Shown here one piece after another: positions 1 to 17,231 of a DNA stretch of 17,231 bases; the first letter of the stretch is position 1; each line of letters starts with the position of its first letter. The position numbers and the translations under genes are program-made. Origin of the DNA: Globomyces pollinis-pini (lineage: Eukaryota; Chytridiomycota; Chytridiomycetes; Rhizophydiales; Globomycetaceae); contig MU621438.1 in the NCBI GenBank assembly GCA_025399215.1, forward strand, positions 1 through 17,231, written 5' to 3'. Under the pieces are notes generated by a model. That model was not told the DNA's origin, did no database searches, and saw nothing but the letters and a program-made list of their open reading frames with translations.

Positions 1-83
1 GCTGCTTTCGGATTTACTCCACTGGAACCAAATAAAGCAGGATAAATCACAGTATTAAATACTGTACAATCGTCCGTGGCCAT
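1..83 (-). CDS. Possible 5' end of an unidentified gene, cut by the left edge
   Basis: An ATG at 83..81 opens a frame that stays open for 27 codons to the window edge, beginning MATDDCTVFNTVIYPALFGS. It follows an AT-rich stretch of about 257 bp after the nucleotidyltransferase stop, which is a sensible distance for a promoter, and it points the same way as all the other genes. I recognise no domain in 27 residues. A 27-codon open run occurs by chance fairly often, so this rests on orientation, spacing and ordinary-looking composition. It could equally be untranslated sequence. Confidence 0.35.
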   Translation of the reverse strand, partial: MATDDCTVFNTVIYPALFGSSGVNPKA

Positions 84-340
84 TGCGGTTGAATAAAGGA
101 AAAAAAAACTCAACGAATATGTGCGGTGTTGGAAACTCAAAGTTGGATGAGTAAATTGGACAATTGGCGATCAGAAGACGTGTTTATTTTACAGAACGAA
201 AAGGACTGTTGAGTATTGCAATGACTCTTCAATATCAATGGGTCCACAGTCTTTAAGACGCTTGAAATAAAATTTTAACACCGATTCCCAATTAGGAAGT
301 TGGTTCGGAGTTACAACCACCAAATATTGGTCCAAGTTGA
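84..340. other. Intergenic spacer left of the nucleotidyltransferase
   Basis: This 257-bp stretch lies between the stop of the nucleotidyltransferase and the possible gene start at 83. It should hold the 3' end of the former and the promoter of the latter. It has an A-run at about 100..108 and several short AT tracts. I see no RNA gene and no clear TATA box or polyadenylation signal. A minus-strand frame (189..395) crosses into it and is discussed under rejected items. Confidence 0.5.
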
Positions 341-946
341 TCATCGAAATAATTTTTGGATCTTGGTTTTGAGAATTTGTAAATGATGCTGGCATTCTTT
401 ATCAAATTCTAGAAAGATATCGTCAGTTTCCATTTCAACCAAATCCCAATCGACTTGAAACTCTATTGGGGTCTGTAATTGTATGAATTCTACCATCCTG
501 ATACTCAAAATAATTGTTCTCACCCCATGAATCAGTATTTTGTGAGACTTCTGTCTATTCTTCACCAACATTTTCCCTGCCAACACTCTGTCTTTTGCAA
601 CTCTCTCAATGCAAAATGCTTCGAGGTTTGCAAAGTATTCCAATTTGAAAGAATATCGCTTTGTCCCATTATACAGTACGTTAGCATTTGGTACAAACAA
701 GGTAATCAATTCCAGAAAACTTCCATCGTTGATTGCCTGTTGATAATCACTTTCATCCAATACTGTAATATCAAATTGTCTTCCATGCTGTGATTTCAAA
801 GGTTTCATTTTTGAATCTTTGACGACGACCAATAAGTCAAAGTCTGACTTTGGATGGGCATTTCCCCATAACCTAGAACCGTATAGGAACACAAACAAGA
901 TTTCTGTTTGTTTGATGCGTAAGATGCTTAGAATTTCCTCAATCAT
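341..946 (-). CDS. Nucleotidyltransferase-fold protein (MNT/KNT-like), 201 aa
   Basis: The protein carries the signature of the polymerase-beta-like nucleotidyltransferase fold: GSRLWG (residues 23-28), then SDFDLLVVV (34-42) with the paired metal-binding acidic residues D35 and D37, and a third candidate acid in the FDIT strand (D59). Spacing matches small stand-alone MNT-type enzymes, which transfer a nucleoside monophosphate from NTP to a small molecule, RNA or protein. The substrate cannot be told from sequence. Residues after about 100 look alpha-helical and charged. The first in-frame ATG is at 946..944. The frame is open further upstream to 1015, but that extension has no ATG and starts at TTG. 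The gene has no intron and ends at TGA (343..341). It lies immediately downstream of the dynein gene in the same direction. The family call is fairly firm; the exact function is unknown. Confidence 0.8.
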   Translation of the reverse strand: MIEEILSILRIKQTEILFVFLYGSRLWGNAHPKSDFDLLVVVKDSKMKPLKSQHGRQFDITVLDESDYQQAINDGSFLELITLFVPNANVLYNGTKRYSFKLEYFANLEAFCIERVAKDRVLAGKMLVKNRQKSHKILIHGVRTIILSIRMVEFIQLQTPIEFQVDWDLVEMETDDIFLEFDKECQHHLQILKTKIQKLFR

Positions 947-1053
947 CTTTTTGAATAAGGCAAAAACTATCACACTAGAAAATGAGTCATTTAGGTCACA
1001 AAATGAAATATGCAATTGTCTTCAATCTCAATATATTAGATTATGATATAACA
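947..1053 (-). promoter_or_regulatory. Short intergenic region / leader of the nucleotidyltransferase
   Basis: Only 107 bp separate the dynein stop codon (1056..1054) from the nucleotidyltransferase ATG (946). The dynein 3' end and the downstream promoter must therefore share this space or overlap the genes. The minus strand reads TATATCATAATCTAATATAT just after the dynein stop, which could serve as an AT-rich promoter core. A six-residue upstream frame, ATG at 990 to TGA at 970, lies in the presumed leader and is out of frame with the main ATG. Confidence 0.4.
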
Positions 1054-4000
1054 CTACTCAGATAACTGTAACTAAAGATTTAGTACTGTATAAAACTTAC
1101 CATAGCTGCAACTCCACGAATAATCCAATACCTTGGAGGTTTGTCTGTACAAAGATACATACTCATAACAAAATTAGTACTATGTCCTGTGGTGGATAAC
1201 GTTCCCCTACGCATGCTTGTCTTGTAAACTGGACATTCGTAGCAGTTCTGTTTAGCACTTAGGAAGTATGGCGCATCTGAAAGGCAAGGAGTAAGTCGTA
1301 CTATTGGTACGGAATCTGTTAATTGTCTTGGATACTGTTCCCCAAGAACTCCGTGATGCCGATCCCACCTTGCTCCTTCCAAATAGAATCCACGAACATA
1401 GACTCCGTCCTCAGGTGCAATCGTAAAAGAGTCTTGTTCCATAACTTCAAATGAAAGCGAGAGTAAATCAATAGGAATAGAATATTTTCGAGCATAATTT
1501 TGCAAAGTACCAGTTAAGAATGATTGTGTAAAGTAAAATCCTGATATCCAAAATACAACAGGCGTTGATGATTCTATCCATCCTGTCAAAAACTGCAGCC
1601 TTGCAAATAGATCCGTTATGTAGCTTCCCTAAATTGTAAGCCTCATTTCATTTTCTTACCAATGGTTTTAAGGATGGGTATGACTTTCCAGCCCAAAGTT
1701 CTGGGATTTTACCAAGTTTTAAACTTATTGTCACTTCTTCCAATTCTTTTGACATTACCACTAAACCTTTTAACGCTTTCAAAACGTTTTGTAATGATTC
1801 TCTAACTATTTTCATCAATCGGTTGTACCGAACCAGTTCTTGAATCAACACAGTATTCATACTCTCCTCATACTTCACGGGATATGCCTTTTTAATGTTT
1901 GGAACATCAAAATCTGGTATCAACCCGCTTAAGATCCCTTGAGCAATCTCACCTGTAATATCATCCTGATTCTTAGAGCCAGATGATCCTCCCCCACTAG
2001 TTCCTTGAGTTAGAATGATAGATGATATTAAAAGATTTGTTTCATTTAAGTCTTTAGATATATCTGCATTCTCGTGCATTCCAAACACTTCAGGGGATTG
2101 AATTAATGGTAAAGACTTGATGTATTTTAGGTAAGTATCATAGTTTCCTTTCTTAGGTGCATAATACATTCCAGAAGGGGAAAATTTGTAATCTTCGTCC
2201 ATTATCTGTTCGGAATAAATAGTACTAAGAATTGCCATCAAAGTTCTTCGATCTTGGTTGTCTGTCACTTTTCCTCCATAGTTACACTCTCCAGCTAAAT
2301 ACGTCAATGCCTTCCAAGGAACTTCTTCGTATTCATTCAAAAACTATAAATGTTAGTAATGATTAAATGCTTACCTTTTGCAGTTGTCGAACACTAATTC
2401 TTAAATCTGACTCATTAAATTCGTAAGGAATGTTCCAACCAAGAGGTCCAAAGTTTCTTCGCTCTTGTACTAAAGCATGGAAGAAACATAGCCCAAAGAG
2501 TAATTTTTCCCAGTGGCTTTCGTTTTCCTTTTTGACCCCTTTGAAGAACGTTTCGTCACAGATTGGATCGGATAGATAACTTCGCAATAGATTTGCTCTA
2601 ATACCGGCTGGTGGTTCATTTGTCATTTTCACTCCATTCTGTAATAAGGTCACTGGAAAGTGTTCAGATGGATAAGAAGTGAGCCAGAGTCTAAATTCTT
2701 TATGCGTAGTATCTGGGGTCAATTCTTCACATATCTTCTCAAGTGTTGGCAACCATGAGACAGCCAAGTGACAGTTTTGTAATACTACCCAAGAGCCACT
2801 CTTTACAGCATGTTTAATCATTTGTCCAGCAATTGGTCCTTGCCCTTGCCCTAATGAAATTGTCTGTAATCGATTTCCAACTATTCCTTTACCGTCAGCA
2901 AATTTAATCAATCTAATGATGAATAAAAAACATTTCATACCCTGCCATAGGATCAGTACCCGGTGAAAGAACGAATATCAATGGCGCGATATTATTTGAA
3001 TCGCCATAACTAGCTGCTAAATCAAATGGAGGAGGTTCGACATATTTCTGGCCCATTTTTTCTTTTACAAACTCCATAACGGCTGGTACTAGCTTATCTG
3101 GACGAATGATTCGAGTTGTCAGCAGTTTTTGGAAGCTTGTAAGTTTAGTACTCCATTCTCCTGGAAGAGGCTCGTTGTATGGCTCATTGGAGTTATAAAT
3201 GACTTCCCACTGTTTTAATGTAGTAGTCATATCAGCAGCAAAGTTTTCAAACGCTTGGAAATGTGATACTCTATTTGCTTCTCCCCATGCTCGATCACGA
3301 AGCCATTCTGGTGCTGGATTTGGTGGTAAATTATTATCCAACGTCAATCCACCCGTTAACAAGAACATCCATTCATCAGCGTCAATCTCTCCACCGCCCC
3401 GTAGAATTCCAACGCACAATATAAATGAGAAAAGCAGTTTATCTTTTTTGAAGAGTGATCTACATATGTTGCAATACAAAGAATATGTGAAATGAGATTT
3501 TAAATTTTCTAATCGCTTTGTCAGGATATCCGATTTTTCCGAATCAGCAATTGATTGTAAGAATAGATTTATGAACCAACTCAGTGAATATTGATACATA
3601 GGCTCAATCTAGAATGCTTGAGAAAACAATGACACTTACATTTGCCATTTCTGCAATAACGAAAAACATAATTGACGAATGTGTAGCAATAGGACGATAT
3701 CCTTGACGGGTAATATCTATTTGCTTTTCTGTTTCTTCAGCAATAGTTTGTTTTTGCGCAATATCATCTGATACAACTTTTGAACTGGTCAAGGCAGATA
3801 TTGCTGATTCATCTTCCAATAAATTTCCTTGAGAATTGCTCAAAATAGCTAAAATTTTGTCTTCAATTTCCTTTAGCTGTTTCTTATTGTTTGCACTAGT
3901 GATGACCAGTTTATTCTTTTCCTCTTCAAGTTCGGGCCTTTCTTTTGCTGCCACAATTCCCAATAGTTGATCTTCCAAACCTTCTAGGGTGATCATAAAA

Positions 4001-7000
4001 TTGACTGTTGTCACTTTGGTAGAAAGCTCTGGTAAGTAATGAGGGTTTCGCAACTTTGTTGTTATGTAGAATCTGAAATCTGGAGAATATTCAACAATCG
4101 ATTCTCCCAATTTAATACACATCACACCGCTTTGTTTGAATATTTGCTTAGTTAAGAGAGGCTCTAATACAGAATCGACCTCTTCTTGTATATTCTCTAA
4201 CAGAACCGGAATTCCAAATTGAATCGCATTCTCTAACTGTCTTACATAATCGGCGTCAGATAATTTAATGATGACTAATTTGTTTGACTTTTCCATATTT
4301 TTAATCCACTTATTTGCCTAATGGTTAGCATATAAAACCAACTTGTCCTTGAGGATCGATAAACAAAGGCCATCTACGTGCAATTGTCGATATAATTCCA
4401 TTATCTCTAGAGAAAGTATCGTTAGGAAGTCCAGCTAAACTCCAAGCCCGGATCTGAATTGGATCACCTAAGGTATTTGCTAATGAAAACACCGGAGAAC
4501 TTGGTATTTTGTACTCTAAGCATTTTGAATTCCACTGTGACAATATCATATTTCTAAACGCTAGAGTAAATGCTCCTAGGTAAGCTATGACGGCTGATGA
4601 TAGGAGGACATCACCAGTCAAATTAGTAAGCGTTACTGAAAGAGTTTTTGCTGCTTCACTCCAACGATCTTTTTCTCCTCCAAGTCCACCAATTAGCTGT
4701 TCTGCTCTAATCAGTTTCTTACCACATAGATCAACTTGTCTTTCTAAATCTGCTTTTTTGTCGGTCATGTCTTTGAATCCTTTTTCTAACTTTTCCATTT
4801 TATCTTCAACCTCTTTTAATTCGGCTCGCTTTGCAGCTAATTTAGTCATTTCTTGTTCCAACTCCCCTTCTGCTTTGGCCAAAGATTCTTTCTTTGGTCC
4901 AACAACCTTTGCTACAACTTCATACTTGTCTAAAGCTCGGACCCATTTGCAAAGACCTTCCGCAGCAGATGACGAATTTTTAATAATTTCAGGAACAAAA
5001 TCGGGATTGGGGATGTAAGTTTTTCTAATTTTGGCCATAATAGTTGGATCTATGTTATCTTTATCATAGGATTTCAAGCTTTGTAAGAAATGACTATCAG
5101 TAATCATTTTGATGGAATTGGCCCAATAATCATCAACCATTTTTCCAGAACCACTCGGATCCTTAATTCTACTCGGTTTTATTCCTTTCATGACACAAAT
5201 AGCTTCCAAAACCAGCTTTACTGCAGCCGGGGGTGTCTTCATTGCTTTAACAAGTGTAATATCGGCTGGTTTTAATGTATCCAAAGCTTCTAGCGCTGCT
5301 TCCAACGCCGGAACAGCCTCTGCTAAATCAGCTTCACAATCATCTTTCATTGCCTTGGCCTCACTGGCCTTCTTGTTTGCAACAGCTTCATCAACCTTTA
5401 CCAATGCTCTTTTTGATTCCACTTCAATACTCTCTCTCTGAATGACCACCATTATTTGATCAGTTTCTTTTTGAGTAATTATTAATTGTGGCTGAAGGGC
5501 ACTTAGTTCTACTTGCATCGTACCAACTTGAGATGCAGCACTAGCTAACTGTTCCAATCCAATTTCATATCTAGATTTCGATGCATTGACTTCCTTTCGC
5601 TTTTTTGACAATAGCTGTTTGTACGTTTGAATAAGCTCTAAATATGAAGTAGGGGTTACATAATTGTGTCGTCGAAGCTGTTCAAAATACTTAAGACTGA
5701 GTTGCCGAGTGCCTACATGGAATGATTTACACATTTCAATGACATTTGTTTTGACTACTGGGTCCATTTCCACATCTTCCAAGAACTTCACAGCAACCAT
5801 ATTCAAAGCATCTTCAGGCCAAACTTGGAACCAATCAATAGTACAGCAATTAACTAAAGAGGGAAACATTCGCAATCTGTTTCTAAACGCTTCCCCGATT
5901 GGTGACATACAGAGAACAATATGAAGGTTTTCTTTACAACGGAAAATAAATTGGTTGTATAATGCAGTTGGAGAAGCATCCATTTTAGGGTTCTCTTTGC
6001 TAACAACATTACGAACAGTTTCAACAACTGCAGCCTTTTCATCTGGTGGGAAAATGTTTGGAACTTCACCAGTATTTAACATGTTGTTGATATCTTCGAG
6101 GAACGATTCATTTTTGATTTGGGTATCGCTGAATAAAAACACAGTTGGTTTTCCTTCTCCACCTGCTTTTAATAGAATTTTTTTCAAGTCATCTCTCCAT
6201 TCATTTTTCCCGTAAGATTTTGAAATTTCAACTTGGAACACGAAGTACTCGGCCATGAATCCTGCTAATCTTGTTAAAGATTGACGACCACTTCCACCCA
6301 CACCGACCAATAGTGCATGTCCACCAGGTTGCTTCAATATTCGAGAGATTCTAGATACATGCTCAACTGCAAACCTGAAAATAACCAAATTCATAGGTGC
6401 CTTTGACATTTGGTTATATTCGTCTAGTCTTCCTTTGATGACTTCTGAAACCTTTGCAACATTCAGTACTTCGTCATAAACTCTTATCAATGCTTCCGGA
6501 TCAATATAGTCGCCAAACATTAGGTTTCGCATATCATCGTCGACTATTTCTGTTCCTTTCTTTGATACTAAATGCTCAAATATATCATCAAATCCGTAAT
6601 TGAAATGCTTTCCAACCACTTCCCTGAAATTTTTGAAAAACCAATCTCTATCATTATCATCAACTAATCGATCATAAAAGACTCGATAGATCTCATGTCC
6701 CCAAAGTCTTATCATTTTTGTAGGTTCGTCAAATCGATCTGCCGATGCTAGCAGTAACCCTTGAACAACTCTAGAAAAATCTCTTAAATTAAAGACATAG
6801 TGTGATTTTGCAGGAGTAGGAAGTAAGTTAGAGATGGATGATTTGTAAATGGCAAGAATGGCTGGAATCAACTGATTCTTCAAATTTCCAACAGTTGCAA
6901 CAAAATTATTCGAACTGAAATGCCAATCCACCATGGTCAAGAAAATTTGCTCCATTGTTTTATCATCAAACTCTGAAATCGCTAAAACATTGAAATGTCT

Positions 7001-10000
7001 TAAGAATCTAGGGGTAATAATGTTCCTTCCACCTCCAGGTGGGCCCATTGCAGAAACAAATTGAATATCTACCAACTGCATAGTGCTGGTATCCTTGAGA
7101 TCATACCATATCCCGTGATCCATCCACTGCCGCAGCAATTCAATTGGCTATAATGTCAATAATTGTAAGTTACCGGCTGTGCTCCATACTTTTCTCTCGC
7201 TGGCATATTCAAATCATCAACGAAAATAACTGCTTTTTGACCATGAGCAGGACCGAAAACCCCTCTTCTTCTCTTGTCTAGCTTGTTCAAAATGATATCT
7301 TGAGTCTGATTGGCGGAAGTTTGTGCTGAAAAATTGACAAATACTGGAGTGTATTGGTCTTTTGGTAACCCATTTAATAATTTGTTATTAATATAGACAC
7401 TTTTTCCCGTACCAGTTGGACCTACAATTAAGGTTTGCTTGTTATGGGTCAGGAACAGATCCAGCAAGTAAGTGTACCGGGCTGTATCAATCGTTGGGAC
7501 TGTAATAGCATTGAATTTTGTTTTAGGTAAAATTTCATATTTTTCTATCGTATCGACCCATAACTTCCATTGACCCCCACTCTTTTTGTCTTTTTCAAAC
7601 ATGTAATCATACACTAATCCTTGTGGTGGAATTGGCTTATCTATTTTTACACCTTCGGGACACGGGTGATCTTTGTTACTTCCATCAATCAGTGTTCTAA
7701 AAAATAAGTCAAATGGCCCTCTTGATGGTTGTATAATAGTTCCTCCAAGTGACCATATGGAACCAAATAAAAACGCAGACGTTATCCAAGTTGTTTGTAT
7801 GTTCAACGGAATATCTTCAATGCTCTTCGCAGAGCCTAAATATTCGTCTAGTTGACAGACAAATAGGTTCATAAGAGACATTGCCATATTTATTGGTGAG
7901 GTTGGCACCACTTCTCTGCAGTTTTGTGCTATAAAAGTTAAGCAAGGGGGAACAACCCAGTCAAACAAGTCTGAAATCATAGTTTTCTGATCTTGTCTAA
8001 ATGTAGGAGCCAAAGTATTAATCCAAGATTCCATCATTGGTCGCCATCCAATGACATCTGGTTCCATGTAGATCATACCACATCTAGAAACTGTAGCAGG
8101 AGATGCAACCGCCAGGTCCGCAACTTCAAATTGGATACTCATTGTGCTCGACATTGACATGATTTCACCACTAGTCAAACATAGCTTCTTGTTATCGTCT
8201 AAGACTGTGTTCATATTTTCAATCCAAATAGCGTCTACTGGGCCATCAAAGATAATCCAACGTCTTTCAGCATTGCCTAATTGAGCGAAAGACCTGAAAG
8301 TGTTGGCTAAAATACCATCGGTCCATTCATGAGTAACTGGATCAAATTGCCCATACAATTGTCCCATAGTGATCGATTTCGGATTAATCACCTTGTAATC
8401 TACCTTCTTCTCATTTAATGATTGCTCAAACATATCGCAGAGTGCAGCAGCCAAAACTCTATAAGCTGTTGTTTTCCCAGACCAAGGTAAACCTACCAGC
8501 ATATAACCATGACGAATGCACATCATTTCATACGTTTGAACGATTTTTTCTAACGCTCCAGTAACAGGCTGTAAGTTTGATTTTTCCATATAGTCCAATA
8601 TACTTGCCATCAAGTGTCGATAATCTGGAGTTGGCAGGTTCACTTTAGGGAACAAATCCGCTGATATTGCTTTAAAGAGCGGTATATCTTGTGTCAAAAA
8701 TTTAGGTAAATTGACATCCTGTATAGAACGAAGCATAATAATATGTTCATTTTCATCTTGATATTTCAGCTTTAGATTCCCAGCAGCTGTTAATACAGAT
8801 TTAACGGCTCTCATACCGTAATCATACTATTGATTAAGAAACCAACGACATTACATGATCTTGAGAAGATAACTGTTCTGAACACAACTTGTAAGTTGCC
8901 ACAATCTTTCTTGCTAGAGTTCTTGCTTCGACAAAACCAAACGAGTATAGTGATATTTCAGCAATCAGAGCATAATCGGGCACCTGAGATTTAGTAGAGT
9001 TTTTTACCATCATGGCCACTGGTCTAAATAATGCTTTCAAATTATCGGGTAATTCCGATCTTCCAGCATAACCTATTTTAAATAAAATCGCTTGCTATAT
9101 TACCAGGATTCATTGTAATAAATACAGAGCATCCACGGTTTAGAGACATGGTAGTTCCTTCGAAAACAAATTTGTCTAATTTGGCAGCAACAGCTCTCTG
9201 GATAGTCAGCACCTGTTGAGCAACAACAGAAAGTACTTCAAGATCGATTCGATTGAATTCATCAAAACATGCCCATGCTCCAGAAGAAGCCAATCCTTTA
9301 AAAAATTTACCCATAGCGATGTAATCTAATCCATCTGAGCAATTGAATACAACACAAGCTTTGGCGATAGCCTTAGCTAAATCTTTAACGGATTCTGTTT
9401 TTCCAGTTCCAGCCGGACCTTCAGGTGCTCCACCAAGGTTCAAGTCAAGAGCACCAATTAGAGTACGATAACAACGATCTGTTAATGGTGTGATAACCAA
9501 TCTTGGACAATTTCCTAAATATTCATACCCATACTTAATAGTAGCATTAATCATTCGAACGTTCACATCATCTTGCTCCCAATAGTATCGCAATTGTGAT
9601 AGCCATTCAAAGTCTCCCTCTTGTGAGACTCGTGCATTATACAGGTCATTACATACGTCTCGAGCATGTAAATCAATAACAACCAAAGCAGATAGTGTCA
9701 TACGTGCCATACTTGTGAGTTCACCTCTAACAAGTTTCACAATATCTTCAAGTTGTTTAGTACATACATCTCTATAATCTTTTAGTCCTTCAGCTCCCAA
9801 TCCTTTGGCTAGTACTTCAGTGACTTCTTTCGTCCAATAAATTTGACTGACACAAATAACTACCTGACCTGGCCATTCCAAAACCCATCGGTCACGGGGT
9901 GTTTCGTTATAAGCTTTGTGAGAATTGGTAATCTGTTGATGTATTGAAGATTGCATTACTTTTTCAACTTGCAACAACCATTTCTCAACAGCTCCTTTAG

Positions 10001-13000
10001 CATTTGCAGGTTCAATGACTTCTTTTAACTTGACTTTTTCATTTTCACTTGAACACATTGCAATGATCTTGGTACCATCTTGAAAAACTAAACTTGCAAT
10101 ACCTTCAAAACATTTTTTCAAATGAGGTTGTACTCGTAAAGGATCTTTGGTTTCCGCTAAAATTTCCAATAATTCATCGTTTGATAAAAAGAAAAATCTT
10201 GGAAAGAAAAGTCGTTTCTTTTCTAAATAATCGTTCAATCCCTTTTGAATTTCTTCCAAATACACATTACTTTCACGCAGCTTTGTCAACAATCCAGGAG
10301 TGACTGCTGCATTAAGTATCTTTGGATTTTCAACTGTATTATTCATAATATCTCTCCAAGTTTTATCAACTGATTTAAATTTCTTTCCTTCTACTGGCAT
10401 AGCAGCCATAATATCTTCTGATGTGAAAATAGGTTCAAGATATAGCCAAGTTGATTGTACTTTTAACCATTCATCAATAATATCTTGAATTGTGACCAAA
10501 GTAGTTTCCCAATTTTTCATTTCTGTTTCGATTGGCTTTACAAATGGACTTCCACGCATAGTTTGAACTTTAACAATTTGATCATCTAGTAAAGCTTGTA
10601 CATCATCCAAAGCTGATAAAATTCGAGTTCCAGTATCTTTATAAGGAATTGGATTAAATACCAATGGTTCCCAATCATCTCTCATCTTTGATAGTGTATT
10701 TTGTAGAGAATGTTCTTTGGAAGCAGCATCAGAAATGGCTTCCAATTGTGGTAATTGTGCTCCAAGATTCAACTCCAAGATTTTTGTTAAAGTGGTACTA
10801 GCATCAGGAGTGACTGGTTGACCCAACAATTCACTTATAGCTTGCCAATGACGTTCACGCAATCCAGGATTTCGAAGTACTGTAATCAAAGGAATATGAA
10901 CCTTAAACTTTTCCAATTTATTCTTGACACTTTCTGCAACTTTCTTCGGTATTGGTTGTTCAGCAAATACCTTACTCAATTTGAATGATACTAGAAACAT
11001 ATTTGATACACTTTCTTCTAACTGCTCAGCATTGATTTCCACAAATGAACCACCCATCCATTTCGAATATTCTGTTTGGAATCTAGATGCCGTTTCCCAT
11101 AATTTTTTAAACGGTTCAAGTACATCTTTAGTTTGTGTTAATTTAGAAAATGATGTTTTTTCCCATTCTAATAATTCTTCTTCATCATTAATCTTTTGTA
11201 CAACTTCACCAAGTTCTTCCAATTTAGTTTCCAATTTCTTGATTTTTTTGACATATTCCGCCAATTCTGACATGATTCCATAATCCTATAGATAAATGTA
11301 TATAAACCACATACCTGAAATTTATTTGCTTGATCTAGACAATCATCCACCTCAACATTTGTGGATTCAATCTTAATCTTAAGATCTTCTTGTGCCTTTG
11401 TTTTCTTTTGTAACATTCGTTTCTTTGATAATTCAAAGATTGGCATAATTCTAGTTGGCCATGTAAATGTTGTACCATTCAATTTGATATCATCTTCTGA
11501 CAAGAAAGCATATGTTAATAAAAAATCTAATCGTTTCTTTCCTTTTGCAATATCTTCTTTCAATGCTACAATATCCTTAAACTTTGCATGTTCCACATAT
11601 TTCATCAACTCTACTAATTCTTCAGTATCATTTGGAGTTTTCATGGCTTTAGAAGATATTTTTTCATAAGCTTCACAAATAGTTAAATTATTTTTACGAT
11701 TGATATCTGCTACTTGATCCACTAATTTTTGAACAAGTTGATTCGCTTTTGCAGTTAAATCCAATTTTAATGAATCACAATCCAAGAAAATTAAAGACAT
11801 TCGAACAATGGAAGGTGATTCAGCAATATCATCAATTAATTTAGTTAATTTTTGAATTTCAACTTCATAATCATCCAATTCATGTTTTTCACGTAAAAAA
11901 TCTTCAATACGTTTTTCAGCTTTATGATTCAATAAAGATTTGTATTTTTCATAAGACATGAGATGTTTTTGAGGTCCAACAGTATTTTTGGAGATAATAC
12001 GTCGATAAAATCGTCCTTCGGATATTCTACCATCTTCCATTGTAATGGCAGGTAAATAAAGTGGTTCAGATGCTAATGAAGTAAATAATTTTGTTTCCAC
12101 TCTTGGTATTTCACGTACAACACTAACAATTTCACCTAAAATGGCTACCACTACACCTTCCAAATCCGTCAAAGGTGGATCAAATCGAATTTGAGTACCA
12201 GAAACATTTAATTTAACCGAAAATAATGAAACATCTGAATTAGTAAGAGTAAATTGTGCAAAAAATTGTTCAAAATCTTTTAAACTATTTCCAACCATTG
12301 ACCATAATTGATTTGATAATATAGCTGTAACAGATTTAAAAAATGAATCTATATAATTAGAATCTTAAAAAAACAAATTTAAATTACCTAATCTTTGATA
12401 ACCAAGATCCACATCTTCAGATTCGGTAGCAATTGCATACCAAATATTTTTTGAAGCCAAAAACATATTTGCAACCATTGGAATCCATCTGTTCAAAAAT
12501 AAATAAATAAAAGAATAAAATTACTCATTCAACAATTTGTTCTTAAAAGCCAAACATTGATTTTTGAGGATTGCTTGGAATTCACCTACAGTCATTGGTA
12601 ACACACTCGGAGTAAAGACTGACATATCTACAACTTTACATTTTTCAAACAATGCAAAAATTTGTAATAATTGTCCCATCACTGGATTAGTAATAAATAA
12701 ATTTTGTTCAATAGTTTTTTTGATAGTAATAAGATGATCATGCCATGGTACTGGTGCTCTAGCGGTAGCAGGTTCATATCGTTGTACTATAAATGGAATC
12801 TTGAGTCGTTGTTGTTCACTAGGATCCAATAGAATATAATCAACAATACTTTGTTTAACAGCCGTTAGATGATTTTGCTTAATTTCTTCTAATAAAGTTT
12901 GAACCGTTGGTTTTAATAATGTAGATTCTCTCATTGAAGTTGATAATTGTGATTGAATGGATTGTAAAGTGATATCATCCATTTGTGATAAACATTCATT

Positions 13001-14149
13001 TTGTATACCACGTTCAACATAAAAGTAATAACGTTGTTGAGCAGTGACTTGTTTTGATATTGTATGTGATTCTAAATCAACAGGATCTAATATCATATGA
13101 GAAGCTAATTCCACTTTGACTGCTGATGTCTCTTCATCCTTGATTGTTTTAATTCGACTTTTTGGTGACATTGGAGGTGATGATTGAGGTTCAAATTTGA
13201 TACTAGTTAAATTTGTTTTTAATCTTTTTGGTATTGGTTGATCTATATAAATAAAAATCAATTTCATGTTTTGATGATTACCTGGTAATTGATTTTGTAA
13301 TCTTTTTTGCATTTGTTTCATACTTAAATTCATTGCTGTTGGAGTGAAATTATTACCAATTGAATCTGAGATTAAACGATGATGTTTTTCTCTATAATCA
13401 TCAATAATATTCAATTTACTCTTTATATGGAGCTGCCAAAGTCCAAGAAAACTTTTTTAATAACGTTGGTAAATCAGTTGTTTCCAAATCAATAATCTGA
13501 GGTACAAACTACATAAAATCAATATCATATTCAAAAAAAAATTTACTTTATCAAGTTTAGCAAGTGAAAATGGAATTGGTGGTTTAGGTACATCAATAAC
13601 AACACCACCACGTTTAGGTTTAATCATTTCTTGAGTCATGACAATCGATTGTTTTGGATATACAATCGATCGTTTTTCTGGTACATAGATTTCAATCAAA
13701 TTCGGATATTCTCGATATCGACTTGCATATGGATTAACAATCTAGTAAAATCAATAGTTAGTTTTTGATCATCATCGTTGGTGATTGGTGATATTGGTAA
13801 GAAATTTTGAAATGAGAATTCATGAATTTCTTTTAATAAATGAATTCATAAAACAATTAGAATACAATTAAAAATTTCGATATCATCAAACACAATTCAA
13901 TCAAATGAAATCAAGATTAAACAAAAAATAGAAATGAAATGATAAACATACTTGATCATCAATCACACTAGGTTCAGAAATGAACCCATCCTGCTGCGAA
14001 ATGATACTTTCAACGGTATGTTGGATAGTAGAATTCCGTTTTTTATCAAATATAGGTTTTTGTGAATCAGTAGAATTGAGTCTGGAATTGGGTAATGATG
14101 GTAATCTTGATACAGGGCGACTATTGGGTTTGGTTGGAGTTGACTCCAT
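1054..14149 (-). CDS. Axonemal dynein heavy chain, monomeric inner-arm type (DNAH3/DNAH7/DNAH12 group), 18 exons, 4130 aa
   Basis: This is the motor subunit of a ciliary/flagellar inner dynein arm: ATP hydrolysis in an AAA+ ring moves it along the neighbouring doublet microtubule. Exons on the minus strand: 14149-13952, 13741-13547, 13508-13420, 13391-13282, 13242-12525, 12488-12388, 12348-11315, 11285-9104, 9072-9008, 8983-8855, 8826-7174, 7147-4343, 4317-3640, 3608-2941, 2912-2375, 2343-1660, 1628-1101, 1071-1054. They total 12393 nt, exactly 4131 codons with the TAG stop. Residues 1-130 are a Ser/Pro-rich tail start; tail and linker follow to about 1400. P-loops: AAA1 GPAGTGKT (1438, nt 9419-9396) with Walker B FDEFN; AAA2 GLPWSGKT (1719, nt 8493-8470); AAA3 GPTGTGKS (2076, nt 7422-7399); AAA4 GVGGSGRQ (2440, nt 6304-6281). 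The stalk spans about 2666-2991, then AAA5, AAA6 and a C-terminal domain with [20 protein letters not shown]. Length fits DNAH3/7/12 (about 4000-4100). Orthology within that group is not resolved. Confidence 0.96.
1072..1100 (-). other. Dynein intron 17 (29 bp) and a 5-residue last exon
   Basis: The donor GTAAGT follows the codons for RGVAAM, and the acceptor is TTTAG. Splicing adds LQLSE and a TAG stop, matching the usual dynein ending (RGVALL-C-QL-x-x). Without splicing the frame runs into VSFIQY and a stop, which is not a dynein ending. The last exon is 18 bp including the stop. Confidence 0.88.
4318..4342 (-). other. Dynein intron 12 (25 bp)
   Basis: The donor is GTTGGT, an unusual variant here, with a GCTAAC branch-like motif close to the acceptor ATTAG. 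Removing 25 bp joins IDPQGQ to [10 protein letters not shown], a conserved AAA5-AAA6 stretch of dyneins, in phase 0. The neighbouring introns 11 (7148-7173, 26 bp), 13 (3609-3639, 31 bp) and 14 (2913-2940, 28 bp) are equally short and equally well supported by the protein join. Confidence 0.9.
4660..5630 (-). other. Dynein stalk coiled coils and microtubule-binding domain
   Basis: Within the large exon 7147-4343, two long heptad-rich helices flank a compact domain. CC1 covers about residues 2666-2776, the microtubule-binding domain about 2777-2896 (roughly nt 5293-4934), and CC2 about 2901-2991. The tip begins [19 protein letters not shown] and contains [13 protein letters not shown] and SYDKDNI, which match the tip of the DNAH3/7/12 group as I know it. 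No intron interrupts the stalk; this 2805-bp exon is the largest in the gene. Confidence 0.85.
8984..9007 (-). other. Dynein intron 9: 24 bp, in frame, no stop codon
   Basis: A 24-bp GT-AG intron (donor GTAAAA, branch-like TACTAAAT, acceptor TCAG) sits in the codons for AMM|VPDYA. Unspliced, it would add eight residues (VKNSTKSQ) inside [17 protein letters not shown]. That segment just after AAA1 has no insertion in the dyneins I know. Length divisible by three and absence of a stop make it invisible to ORF scanning. It is the shortest intron in the window. Confidence 0.87.
13243..13281 (-). other. Dynein intron 4: 39 bp, in frame, no stop codon
   Basis: Donor GTAATC and acceptor TATAG bound a 39-bp AT-rich segment that reads as [12 protein letters not shown] plus a split codon if translated. 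Splicing in phase 1 joins NQLP to DQPIPKRLK. The segment is in a poorly conserved tail region, so support comes from base composition, splice signals and size rather than homology. Confidence 0.75.
13742..13951 (-). other. Dynein intron 1 (210 bp), the only long intron of this gene
   Basis: Donor GTATGT follows the codons ending VIDDQ, and the acceptor is TTTTACTAG with an AACTAAC branch-like motif about 20 nt upstream. The downstream exon begins [13 protein letters not shown], and a stop in its frame lies directly before it, so an intron is required. It is more than five times longer than any other intron in the gene. It contains a 12-bp AATTCATGAATT palindrome at 13817-13828. First-intron enhancer content is possible but only a guess. 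Confidence 0.75.
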
Positions 14150-14507
14150 CTTTCCTTTGTGTTTTTTTCTTTGGGTGTTTCTTGTAAGATAAAGAGAATT
14201 GGAAACGTCATTTCAGTTTTCGACGCGTTTTTTTTTTTCAAGGAGCTTAATTTGATGATATCTTGTATCGTTGATTGATTAGTTTATTGAAATAAAAAAC
14301 AAAAGAATGGTATTGGTATAATTCAGATAAAGATAAACAGTTTTGATTGCACAAATCTCACAAAGTTACAGGTAAACACCAAAATCTTTGATTCGAATGA
14401 CTCATGAACCCAACCAAAAACAATGGTAAATAAATCAAAAAATCAAATTCATATAGTTAAACAAAAATTCATATTCATATAGTTAAAACATAAAGTATAG
14501 CAACTAT
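14150..14507. promoter_or_regulatory. Intergenic region: GTPase 3' end and dynein promoter/leader
   Basis: This 358-bp stretch separates the GTPase-like gene from the dynein start. Near the dynein ATG the minus strand has an A-rich leader (AAACACAAAGGAAAG before ATG), a TGACGT motif (14205-14210), an ACGCGT motif (14223-14228) and a run of about ten A. ACGCGT resembles the fungal MCB cell-cycle element and TGACGT a CRE-like site; single short matches prove nothing. The far part is AT-rich with the 26-bp repeat listed separately. I see no gene or RNA here. Confidence 0.5.
14447..14490. repeat. Direct repeat, period 26 bp, two copies
   Basis: ATTCATATAGTTAAA occurs at 14447-14461 and again at 14473-14487. 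The intervening bases also end in ATTCAT, so the period is 26 bp. It lies just beyond the GTPase stop codon, in presumed 3' untranslated or intergenic sequence. Neither copy has GT/AG ends on the minus strand, so it differs from the intron arrays further right. Confidence 0.75.
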
Positions 14508-17173
14508 TCAACCAATCATTCGATTCTTACATGGAACAGCCACAAACCCAACCCGACATTCATGATGACATCTCTTCAAACAAACTAACCATCATAAAAA
14601 AACAATAAAACAAACCTGTACAATAAAGTCCATGACGTACCCAAACCCAACCATGACAACAATCAAAGGTCCCACTCCAGAGGACAGAGGTATCAAGTAC
14701 ATGTTCATGCATTTCACATCCAAATTGTGTTCGACCTCGTTCTTGCATTTCGGATTCAAGGGTGGTAAACATGAGTTGGGTTTGTAAAACTCGTTTTTTC
14801 CAATCTCCAAAATAAGTTCCTTTTAATTCTTGATCTTCTAATTTTTGTAGAATGATGGTGACATTGGTCAAGGTGGATTCAGTATAGGTATGAAAAGCAC
14901 GATTGAATTCATGAACATGTGATTTGATATCGTTAATGACTTTATCGATATTCGAAGGTGTATCAAAGAGTGGTTGTATGGATGCCAGGATATTTACCCA
15001 TAACTGATTTTCGGCCATAAAGAGTTCAAGGTCGAAATGAATAGCTTGTACGGATCGTTTTGGAATTGAACTTGCATGATAATCAAGATAGGCTGATAAA
15101 GAGATGGCAAGAAGTAAAGCAGCTCCCATACCAATGAGTACAGGTTGTTGACCGGCTAATGCGGTACTGACACTTACTAAAGCTGCAGATGATGCATGTA
15201 CATTTCCATTGGGTGTTAGTAATGCAGTCAATCCTGATCGAATCATTTCCACAGCTGTTTTTAATTCCGTCACATTTACAAAATTATTGAATTGTGACGA
15301 TCCTTTGGTATCACCCAATGCCAAAGTAAGTTCATTGGCAATTGGTACCCAAACTTGTGATAATTCAAAACAACAATTCATTCTGAATTCACATAATCGT
15401 TTAATTTCGTAAATTATAGAAATATCATTGATGAGAATGAGATCGAGTAATCTTCGTTGGTAAGATGCATATTCTAAATAATGAGTTTTAGTAAGTTTGA
15501 TCCATTTATCGATTTTGTCTACCAGTTTTCCTTTGAGAGGTGGGTATCTTGGTAATTCATATGAATCCATTTTGAGTCGTAAAAAATTTGTAATGATATC
15601 TCGACCTTTTGACGTTGTCCATGATTTCATATCCTTTGTTGTCTTTATATTGATTAACCCTAAATTCCATTTTAAAATTGTAATGTATACCTAATATAAA
15701 AATACATTGTTACGATACCTAATATAAATATGAATTGTTACGAAACCTAATATAAATATGAATTGTTACGAAACCTAATATAAATATACATTGTTACTAA
15801 ACCTAATATAAATATACATTGATACGAAACCTAATATAAATATACATTGTTACTAAACCTAATAAAAAGAAAGTAAATTAGAATAGTAATACCAAACCTA
15901 AAAATCAGAATAAAGCAATTCTTACCTTCAATGAGAGTGAAATAGGATTCCAATTGAGCCAAATAAGGAGATACTTGTCCAATTAATCTACATGCCTGCA
16001 ATACAGCCAACAAATCAGATAATGAATACACTTTATCAGAAAAAACAGCTTTAAAGTAAGTAAAGTCATATGGTTGAATTTGAAGTTGTAATAAACCAGA
16101 TTCGATGATTGGATCCAATTCTTGAGCAATAAGGTCGAGTAAAAAAGCTTGTGCATCTAGTAGATAGAGTTTGACGTTTGATGTAAATGGGACATCGAAT
16201 TCTACCATTGGAGATTTTAAAGATTTCATTGATTTCTAAAAGGTTAATGAGATTAAGAATACCTAATGGATAAATAATAATAATAGTTACCAATAAATCT
16301 TTTTTCAATTTACCTTTGAAAGGATCATAGATAGAATTGGGGATGGTAGGTTTTGGCATATGTAATACTTGAATCTTTTTTTTTATTTGATTATCTGTTA
16401 AATCCAGTAACGTAGTAGGAGTAAAATCATCAGAACGAGTGAGTACTACCAAAGAATTTTCGGAATTGATGAAATCACAAGAGAGTAAATCAATGAATTT
16501 TTGGTTATATTCACGAGAACCTTGATGAGCAGCGTAAGATTGTACAATGACGAATTTGAAGGAACGACGTTCGAGTAAAGTTTTGTGAAATAAATGGATA
16601 AAGAGTTCATGTATTGGACCTAAATGGAATTAGTTTTTTGAAATAGATATAAAGTGATGTGAATTGATTAGAATTCAAGTGAAATCATTAATTAGAATTC
16701 AAGTGAAATCATTAATAAAATAATTCAAGTGATGTGAAAGTTATGTGAAATAATTAAAATAAAGTGATTATAAATACCTCTCGTATCAAAGAAACCGGGA
16801 AAATCACAATAGATGATATTATCGATTGTAGAACGATAAAAATTTGGAAAGAAGGTGATTGCTTTACTAATAAAGTTAGTTTCCGAGTAAGTATACTTTC
16901 CATCAGCAGTTTCTGAACCTTTTATAGGATTTTTACAATAAAGAATATTTTTATTATTTGAATTTAAAGTATGATTATTTAAAAAGTTGATTAAAGTAGA
17001 TTTTCCAGAACCCGTTTGACCAATGAAAGCTATTATTTGATGATGACAACAATTTTGACAAGAAGTGTTACAAGATTCAGTTCAAACTGTATTGCAATGA
17101 GAAGTTGTTTATTGGACTTACCTGTATTGCAATGAGAAGATTGCGATACAGGTTCAGACTTTGAAAGATACAT
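14508..17173 (-). CDS. P-loop GTPase-like protein with C-terminal Cys/His cluster, 6 exons, about 687 aa
   Basis: Exons on the minus strand: 17173-17122, 17029-16778, 16619-16291, 16235-15926, 15659-14616, 14584-14508; total 2064 nt, a whole number of codons. Motifs: G1 GQTGSGKS (residues 21-28), a G3-like DFPG (93-96) followed by FFDTRG, and LVVLTRSDD with TRSD (162-165) in the G4 position. A hydrophobic stretch lies at about 471-505, and a Cys/His cluster near the end reads CTVCLKRCHHEC (661-672) with a further Cys at 681. The arrangement resembles AIG1/IAN-like GTPases, some of which, as I recall, carry a similar C-x2-C-x3-CH-x2-C module. The ATG at 17173 is preceded directly by an in-frame TAA. 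Role unknown; GTP binding is inferred. The last two exons are less certain: a further possible 27-bp intron (14504-14530) would replace the final seven residues. Confidence 0.78.
14585..14615 (-). other. GTPase gene intron 5 (31 bp)
   Basis: Donor GTTTGT and acceptor GGTTAG, phase 1. Without it the frame runs through a low-complexity hydrophobic tail to TGA at 14560. With it, the Cys at the exon end is completed to CTVCLKRCHHEC, a plausible metal-binding cluster. The gain of a motif and the standard 31-bp size are the support; the donor itself is weak. Confidence 0.62.
15660..15925 (-). repeat. GTPase gene intron 4: nine tandem intron-like units joined AG|GT
   Basis: The 266-bp intron divides without remainder into nine segments, each starting GT and ending AG on the minus strand, in transcription order: 15898-15925 (28 bp), 15859-15897 (39), 15831-15858 (28), 15803-15830 (28), 15775-15802 (28), 15747-15774 (28), 15719-15746 (28), 15691-15718 (28), 15660-15690 (31). 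The six central units follow GT(T/A)T(A/C)GTA(A/T)CAAT and end in TTTATATTAG. Units 3 and 5 are identical, as are units 6 and 7. The first unit has the best donor, GTAAGA. Removing all nine joins TLIE to GLINIKTTKD in phase 1 and keeps the frame. The outer ends make a valid intron whether it is removed in one step or in several. Confidence 0.93.
16236..16290 (-). other. GTPase gene intron 3 (55 bp), divisible into 28 + 27 bp GT-AG units
   Basis: Donor GTAACT follows the codons for KKDLL, and the final acceptor CTTTTAG precedes KSMKSLK, phase 0. An internal ATTAG|GTATTC at 16263/16262 splits the intron into a 28-bp and a 27-bp GT-AG segment with nothing between. Removing only the first unit leads to VFLISLTF and a stop, so both must go. 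The second unit has a TTAAC branch-like motif near its acceptor. Confidence 0.85.
16620..16777 (-). other. GTPase gene intron 2 (158 bp) with a perfect 24-bp tandem repeat
   Basis: Donor GTATTT and acceptor CATTTAG, phase 1, join DFPGFFDTRG to PIHELF. Inside, a 24-bp unit containing TTAGAATTCAAGTGAAATC on the plus strand occurs twice in perfect tandem (16668-16691 and 16692-16715), with a partial third copy at about 16722-16731. On the coding strand, GT occurs only at the first two bases and AG only at the last two. Confidence 0.85.
17030..17121 (-). other. GTPase gene intron 1 (92 bp) with a duplicated exon end
   Basis: The donor is the consensus GTAAGT after MYLSKSEPVSQSSHCNT plus one base. 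The acceptor AATAATAG completes an Ala codon before FIGQTGSGKS. An internal CAG at 17087 would make a 35-bp intron but leads straight to TGA, so the distal acceptor is chosen. The 18 bases before that internal CAG repeat the last 18 bases of exon 1 exactly. Confidence 0.7.
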
Positions 17174-17231
17174 TTATACGTTTCAAACTACGGCTTACAG
17201 ACGCATTGGGATTCGAGGAATCTGAGGGTTC
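17174..17231 (-). other. Upstream of the GTPase start; nothing identified
   Basis: These 58 bp should be leader or promoter of the GTPase-like gene. One minus-strand frame is open across them but is cut by the window edge and hits TGA inside exon 1. A further 5' exon beyond the window cannot be excluded, although the in-frame TAA just before the ATG argues against extension without splicing. Confidence 0.4.

Follow-up and report, generated by a model that had tools for sequence, protein, structure and literature searches.

Trains of abutting minimal introns, probably spliced unit by unit, in the genome of the chytrid Globomyces pollinis-pini

The window analysed here, a stretch of 17,231 nucleotides (C349, bases 1-17231) from the culturable saprotroph Globomyces pollinis-pini (order Rhizophydiales), carries on its minus strand an in-frame intron of 266 nt that consists of nine GT..AG units placed end to end (15660-15925). 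Similar arrays of tandem minimal introns occur throughout the genome, and together with this one they form a class. For the class as a whole, the sequence data lead us to put at about 0.7 the probability that every unit functions as a minimal intron in its own right and leaves stepwise via intron definition. According to this proposal a unit, mostly ~25-33 nt in length, would be an entire U2-type GT..AG intron that possesses a donor, a branch point and an acceptor of its own; neighbouring units meet at AG/GT and would therefore have a zero-length exon between them. The nearest donor and acceptor would pair over the short distance, so that units could leave singly and in any order, and every removal would restore an exon/GT or AG/GT joint, all paths leading to an identical mRNA.

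The 266-nt intron (minus strand, 15925-15660) divides with zero remainder into units of 28, 39, six times 28, and 31 nt. All 8 inner boundaries read AG/GT, and two pairs of units (3 and 5, 6 and 7) are identical; the partition put forward in the initial annotation was reproduced in its coordinates and lengths. Excision of all 266 nt gives an open frame across ...YFTLIEG/LINIKTTKDMK..., and retention of any one unit results in a frameshift or a stop. None of 20,000 mononucleotide shuffles of the intron divided fully into AG/GT units of 20-42 nt, a null model that is blind to repeat structure and excludes only composition as the source of the division. The core of the array (15689-15868) is reported by TRF as a 28-bp repeat of 6.4 copies at 92% match; units 3-8, being near-identical head-to-tail repeats, also constitute an intronic minisatellite.

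Unit size was compared with that of ordinary introns. From the 18.5 Mb assembly (459 contigs) a local sample of 20 stretches plus the window was taken, one stretch being wholly and two partly unreadable (N runs at L008, L010 and L021); in this sample the final pass of a simple gene finder gave 511 introns in 79 models. Predicted introns have a mode of 27-29 nt with a long tail that consists partly of errors; the flat-length gene model handles long introns too crudely. In donors, GT is followed by A at +3 in a fraction of 0.86, acceptors are mainly TAG, and a YTRAY whose A lies 6-9 nt from the end is frequent; because the models were trained on the same data, the values for donors and acceptors are somewhat inflated. 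Support for the finder comes from an RPC2 (Pol III second-subunit) fragment on C5, where its translation equals the deposited G. pollinis-pini protein over 867 residues, across seven introns of 25-31 nt. The other single introns predicted in the window measure 24-38 nt, beside a few longer ones (92, 158, 210 and 324 nt), some of them doubtful, which bears out the earlier statement that the units are the size of complete single introns. Lengths divisible by three, whose depletion would be a sign of surveillance, are not depleted among single introns (111/102/84, modulo 3) or units (32/28/25).

Tandem introns recur within this sample: five units at 692-829 of L004 (minus strand), three at 4002-4080 of L015, and pairs. 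Over 193,685 readable bases, 11 of 537 short-intron positions are tandem, a count that includes two fragments of the 266-nt array, drops 15 positions with an intron above 45 nt, and from which the five-unit L004 array is absent. Among predicted introns flanked on either side by an exon no shorter than 45 nt, those dividing into units number 6 of 24 at 46-75 nt (1.06 expected), 0 of 16 at 76-110 nt (0.21 expected) and 1 of 35 at 111-200 nt (0.01 expected).

A genome-wide search for introns that factor into GT..AG units, as suggested in the initial annotation, revealed many more. A strict pattern, TAGGTA-N18-27 twice (three joints, units of 24-33 nt), gave 91 matches at 55 loci on 45 contigs, compared to 8 in a backward control. 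The same pattern at spacings of 44-53 nt gave 0 matches (backward 1), and at 12-21 nt again 0 (backward 10). A two-joint version gave 327 matches at intron spacing (backward 199) vs. 31 at 44-53 nt (backward 171); judging by coordinates, at least 9 of these 31 are two-unit steps within arrays of the strict scan. A loose scan, for three TAGGT joints at intervals of 25-39 nt, returned 211 matches over the whole genome against 141 backward; since the backward control performs poorly for loose patterns, our conclusions rest on spacing and on the strict pattern. Since strict joints occur at 24-33 nt and at neither of the two other spacings, the joints are tied to intron length. Chance as the origin of the arrays is ruled out by the shuffles of one intron, by the backward control of the strict pattern and, above all, by the spacing controls.

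A further prediction concerns the inner units. If only the outer ends of an array are used, then inner donors and branch motifs are expected to decay. We drew 165 inner units from the first 100 of the 211 loose-scan matches, the pattern fixing only the TAG, the GT and the length range. The donor reads GTA in 120 of the 165 units; in the sample at large, A follows TAGGT in 88 of 293 cases. In 72 of the 165 a YTRAY places its A 5-11 nt from the end, where shuffled interiors give 21.2 (sd 4.4) and single introns 138 of 297; after similar units were dropped the motif is still present in 34 of 85 vs. 10.5 shuffled. Units are somewhat longer than single introns (30.5 vs. 28.9 nt). AG within units is rarer than expected (39 vs. 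64.4), as it is within single introns (145 vs. 188.3), and GT is hardly depleted in either (74 vs. 84.5 in units; 208 vs. 218.8 in single introns). The inner units thus have the GT..AG ends and species-typical length of U2-type introns and, as a class, a branch-point-like motif. The main argument for stepwise splicing is that donors and branch motifs inside the arrays occur at the frequency seen in single introns; from it we infer that the units are removed one after another and that selection maintains their signals.

The arrays lie in ordinary protein-coding genes. Gene models at L022-L061 (built on both strands, with overlaps unresolved) contain 41 tandem introns, 27 of them with at least three units and the largest with eight; the units, often unrelated in sequence, measure 23-40 nt, except for one 68-nt element in the L041 model. 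Of 20 array regions hand-picked among the listed loose-scan matches, with long chains favoured, 17 gave a model with at least three units. The eight-unit array lies in a GDSL-lipase-like gene (L033), six-unit arrays are found at L045 and L049, and five-unit arrays, among others, in genes for a protein kinase (L022), a ubiquitin-conjugating enzyme (E2; L044), a protein disulfide isomerase-like (PDI) protein (L052) and a PhyH protein (L043). Ten of 12 array proteins were scanned against Pfam. In seven a domain crosses an array joint (kinase, Gpi1, GDSL lipase, PhyH, UQ_con, thioredoxin and PRA1); in three it does not (the first array of a WD40 gene, MCM, where the joint is at the domain edge, and Hop2). 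Two gene models, L026 and L052, hold two separate arrays each, and arrays may cluster in some genes. An Rfam scan of seven loci plus the window returned zero matches at the gathering score.

How did the arrays arise? We propose that they owe their start, at least in part, to an intron being duplicated in tandem, an event that would be invisible in the mRNA, and that units later diverge with their splice signals maintained. Because duplicates leave the mRNA unchanged, arrays could grow, and their copy number drift, neutrally. Adjacent units are clearly related in 14 of 100 pairs, compared to 1 of 90 control pairs, and of the two closest pairs one is identical and the other differs by a single base, so tandem duplication did take place in some arrays. 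Beyond these 14 clear pairs no residual old homology was detected (p 0.96), and the remaining pairs may stem from old duplication or from insertion at AG/GT boundaries. Insertion, which is compatible with stepwise splicing, would mean that new introns preferentially enter existing AG/GT exon-intron boundaries, unrelated units attaching to the array rather than being copied from a neighbour. We hold this to be a tentative, minority explanation: it would account for the 86 of 100 adjacent pairs without recognisable kinship, but not for the excess of clearly related ones, and a search with three of the arrays, in which old copies would escape recognition, found no further copies in the genome. 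The 28-nt unit of the 266-nt array has six genome matches at up to 3 mismatches, all within its own array, and the arrays of L033 (C7:65412-65639) and L030 (C4:120624-120769) likewise match only themselves in their own genome; a dispersed element, or introner, is ruled out for these three. Arrays of similar or near-identical units were also seen at C12:42111-42254, C68:15928-16040, C194:3382-3560 and C225:6566-6725 (the last two judged by eye). These four are apparently younger expansions and candidates for copy-number polymorphism.

The suggestion that a minimal intron has multiplied and is serially spliced is thus well supported by sequence for the class and only partly for the 266-nt locus on which it was first made. 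Unit 1 (15898-15925, 28 nt) has a good donor (GTAAGA, 76th percentile) and a branch-like CTGAT 7 nt from its end. Weak donors follow: GTTTGG (4th percentile) in unit 2 (15859-15897, 39 nt; YTNAY 19, 15 and 4 nt from the end), GTTTAG in the identical units 3 (15831-15858) and 5 (15775-15802), and GTTTCG in unit 4 (15803-15830) and the identical units 6 (15747-15774) and 7 (15719-15746). Unit 8 (15691-15718) has GTATCG (18th percentile); it and units 3-7 are each of 28 nt with TTTAT 6 nt from the end. Unit 9 (15660-15690, 31 nt) has GTATAC (32nd percentile), and no YTNAY was found in it. Three observations weigh against unit-by-unit removal here. First, six of the nine donors lie in the lowest 1-4%, in agreement with the weak central GTTT(A/C)G-like donors of the initial annotation. 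Second, better donors are present 5 nt inside seven units (GTATTA in unit 2, GTATCA in unit 4, GTAACA in units 3 and 5-8). Third, a neighbouring 158-nt intron of the same gene (16620-16777, minus strand) carries a 24-bp minisatellite, and apart from its two ends this intron contains neither AG nor GT. The stepwise case is accordingly weaker for this array than for the class, and the run of six weak donors makes it likely that several units leave together in larger steps.

One-step removal is a possible, if on the whole unlikely, alternative at this locus. The 266 nt would then be an ordinary longer intron holding a 28-bp minisatellite, of which only the GTAAGA start and the TTTAG end are used, the joints being inert and repeated simply because the repeat unit contains AGGT. 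The repetitive nature of units 3-8 and the weak donors of units 3-7 fit this account, as does the 158-nt comparison intron: long introns seem to be spliced whole, and long single introns may, like this one, be free of splice dinucleotides in their interior. Yet units 1, 2 and 9 keep AG/GT boundaries although neither 1 nor 9 is a copy of the repeat. Moreover, diverged arrays elsewhere retain GTA donors and branch-like motifs above chance, which is not expected of inert spacers, and their strict joints are confined to intron spacing among the spacings tested. More doubtful still is a nested register, in which the inner donors of units 2-8 (29th-46th percentile vs. 1-4 for GTTTNG, and some of them picked by the gene finder) would be used first, excising 23 nt per unit, or 34 nt in unit 2; the 5-nt remnants would then leave together with unit 9, forming a final intron of ~66 nt much as twin introns do. 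Against this, 23 nt is close to the minimum length among predicted introns (10 of 511), and remnants kept in the mRNA would bring an in-frame stop within 3 codons, so that a second step of rare size is required.

Stepwise removal of complete units invites comparison with several known systems. In fly recursive splicing, AG/GT ratchet points occur mostly in long introns, and the intronic type depends on a cryptic exon there (PMC8605326). The chytrid arrays share with Drosophila ratchet points an acceptor and a donor juxtaposed inside an intron, where removal of a segment would recreate a donor and leave the mRNA without trace. They differ in that segments are ~28 nt long, that up to eight or nine follow in series, and that the next acceptor is only ~28 nt away; because this leaves little room for a cryptic exon at the joints, splice sites probably pair across the intron. 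Stwintrons, composite introns of fungi, are excised consecutively, smallest first, by intron definition (PMC7138796), and the search motif for the [D1,2] type has AGT at the boundary (PMC9024468). Consecutive excision from a composite fungal intron is what we propose here too; in stwintrons, however, the internal intron interrupts the donor, branch point or acceptor of the other, whereas up to eight or nine chytrid units are each complete and abut at AGGT. The nested register, were it used, would make the 266-nt array resemble a stwintron sensu lato.

The human polyubiquitin gene UBC has tandem dual-specific AGGT sites around its coding repeats (PMC10809524). Tandem AG/GT sites able to act as either splice site are common to both cases, but the UBC repeats are coding and the isoforms vary, whereas the chytrid repeats are introns and every complete path would give one mRNA. 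In a study of intron gain by tandem duplication the duplicated stretch reportedly becomes one new intron; in the chytrid, by contrast, an existing intron multiplies and the mRNA is unaltered. Such gain creates intronic sequence bounded by AGGT (PMC4974935), and tandem duplication is named as a general route of intron gain in a 2026 paper on Paramecium bursaria (PMC12862383), in which a search on a few terms gave no match for adjacent or double introns. Introners are introns multiplied within a genome (PMC9860276); the arrays resemble them in this, but introners copy into many genes, and the three arrays searched lack dispersed similar copies. No description of trains of minimal introns was found in the open-access literature searched, which is weak evidence, most subscription papers and bioRxiv being outside the scope of the search. 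We place the arrays, as a variant, among composite introns that are probably spliced recursively.

Taken further, and with somewhat less assurance than we give to stepwise removal itself, these trains would probably consist of as many as eight or nine entire minimal introns in a row, each recognised by itself and excised through intron definition, and would be spread genome-wide over ordinary protein-coding genes. Growth would be neutral; after divergence, precise loss would be rare and all joints would have to work, a ratchet that makes expression dependent on ever more splicing events. If units are spliced singly, then the arrays represent recursive splicing without exons, at the smallest scale, and offer a natural test of intron definition. 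They would also show one way in which introns multiply, with identical, similar and unrelated units present side by side as its intermediates in a single genome, and be an example of complexity that may accumulate without benefit.

The host gene of the 266-nt array (14560-17231, minus strand, its 5' end beyond the window) encodes a P-loop GTPase-like protein, assigned through Pfam GTPase families with MMR_HSR1 barely above the cut-off. A homologue with which to check the intron by alignment was sought, and none was found at E 0.001 among 7994 candidates scored. The coding exon upstream of the array (15926-16235) ends in ...CTCATTGAAG; the downstream exon (14560-15659), an open frame, begins with GGTTAATC, and its 3' limit, a stop or a further intron, is provisional. 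The same gene contains a second tandem pair (16236-16290, minus strand), made up of a 28-nt unit (16263-16290, TTTAT 8 nt from the end) and a 27-nt unit (16236-16262, TTAAC 8 nt from the end), with donors at the 78th and 53rd percentiles, respectively.

The large gene of the window encodes a dynein heavy chain. One of its exons (4328-7144, minus strand) groups with metagenome proteins, the three nearest being 79-86% identical; from these matches, relatives of G. pollinis-pini seem to be present in public metagenomes.
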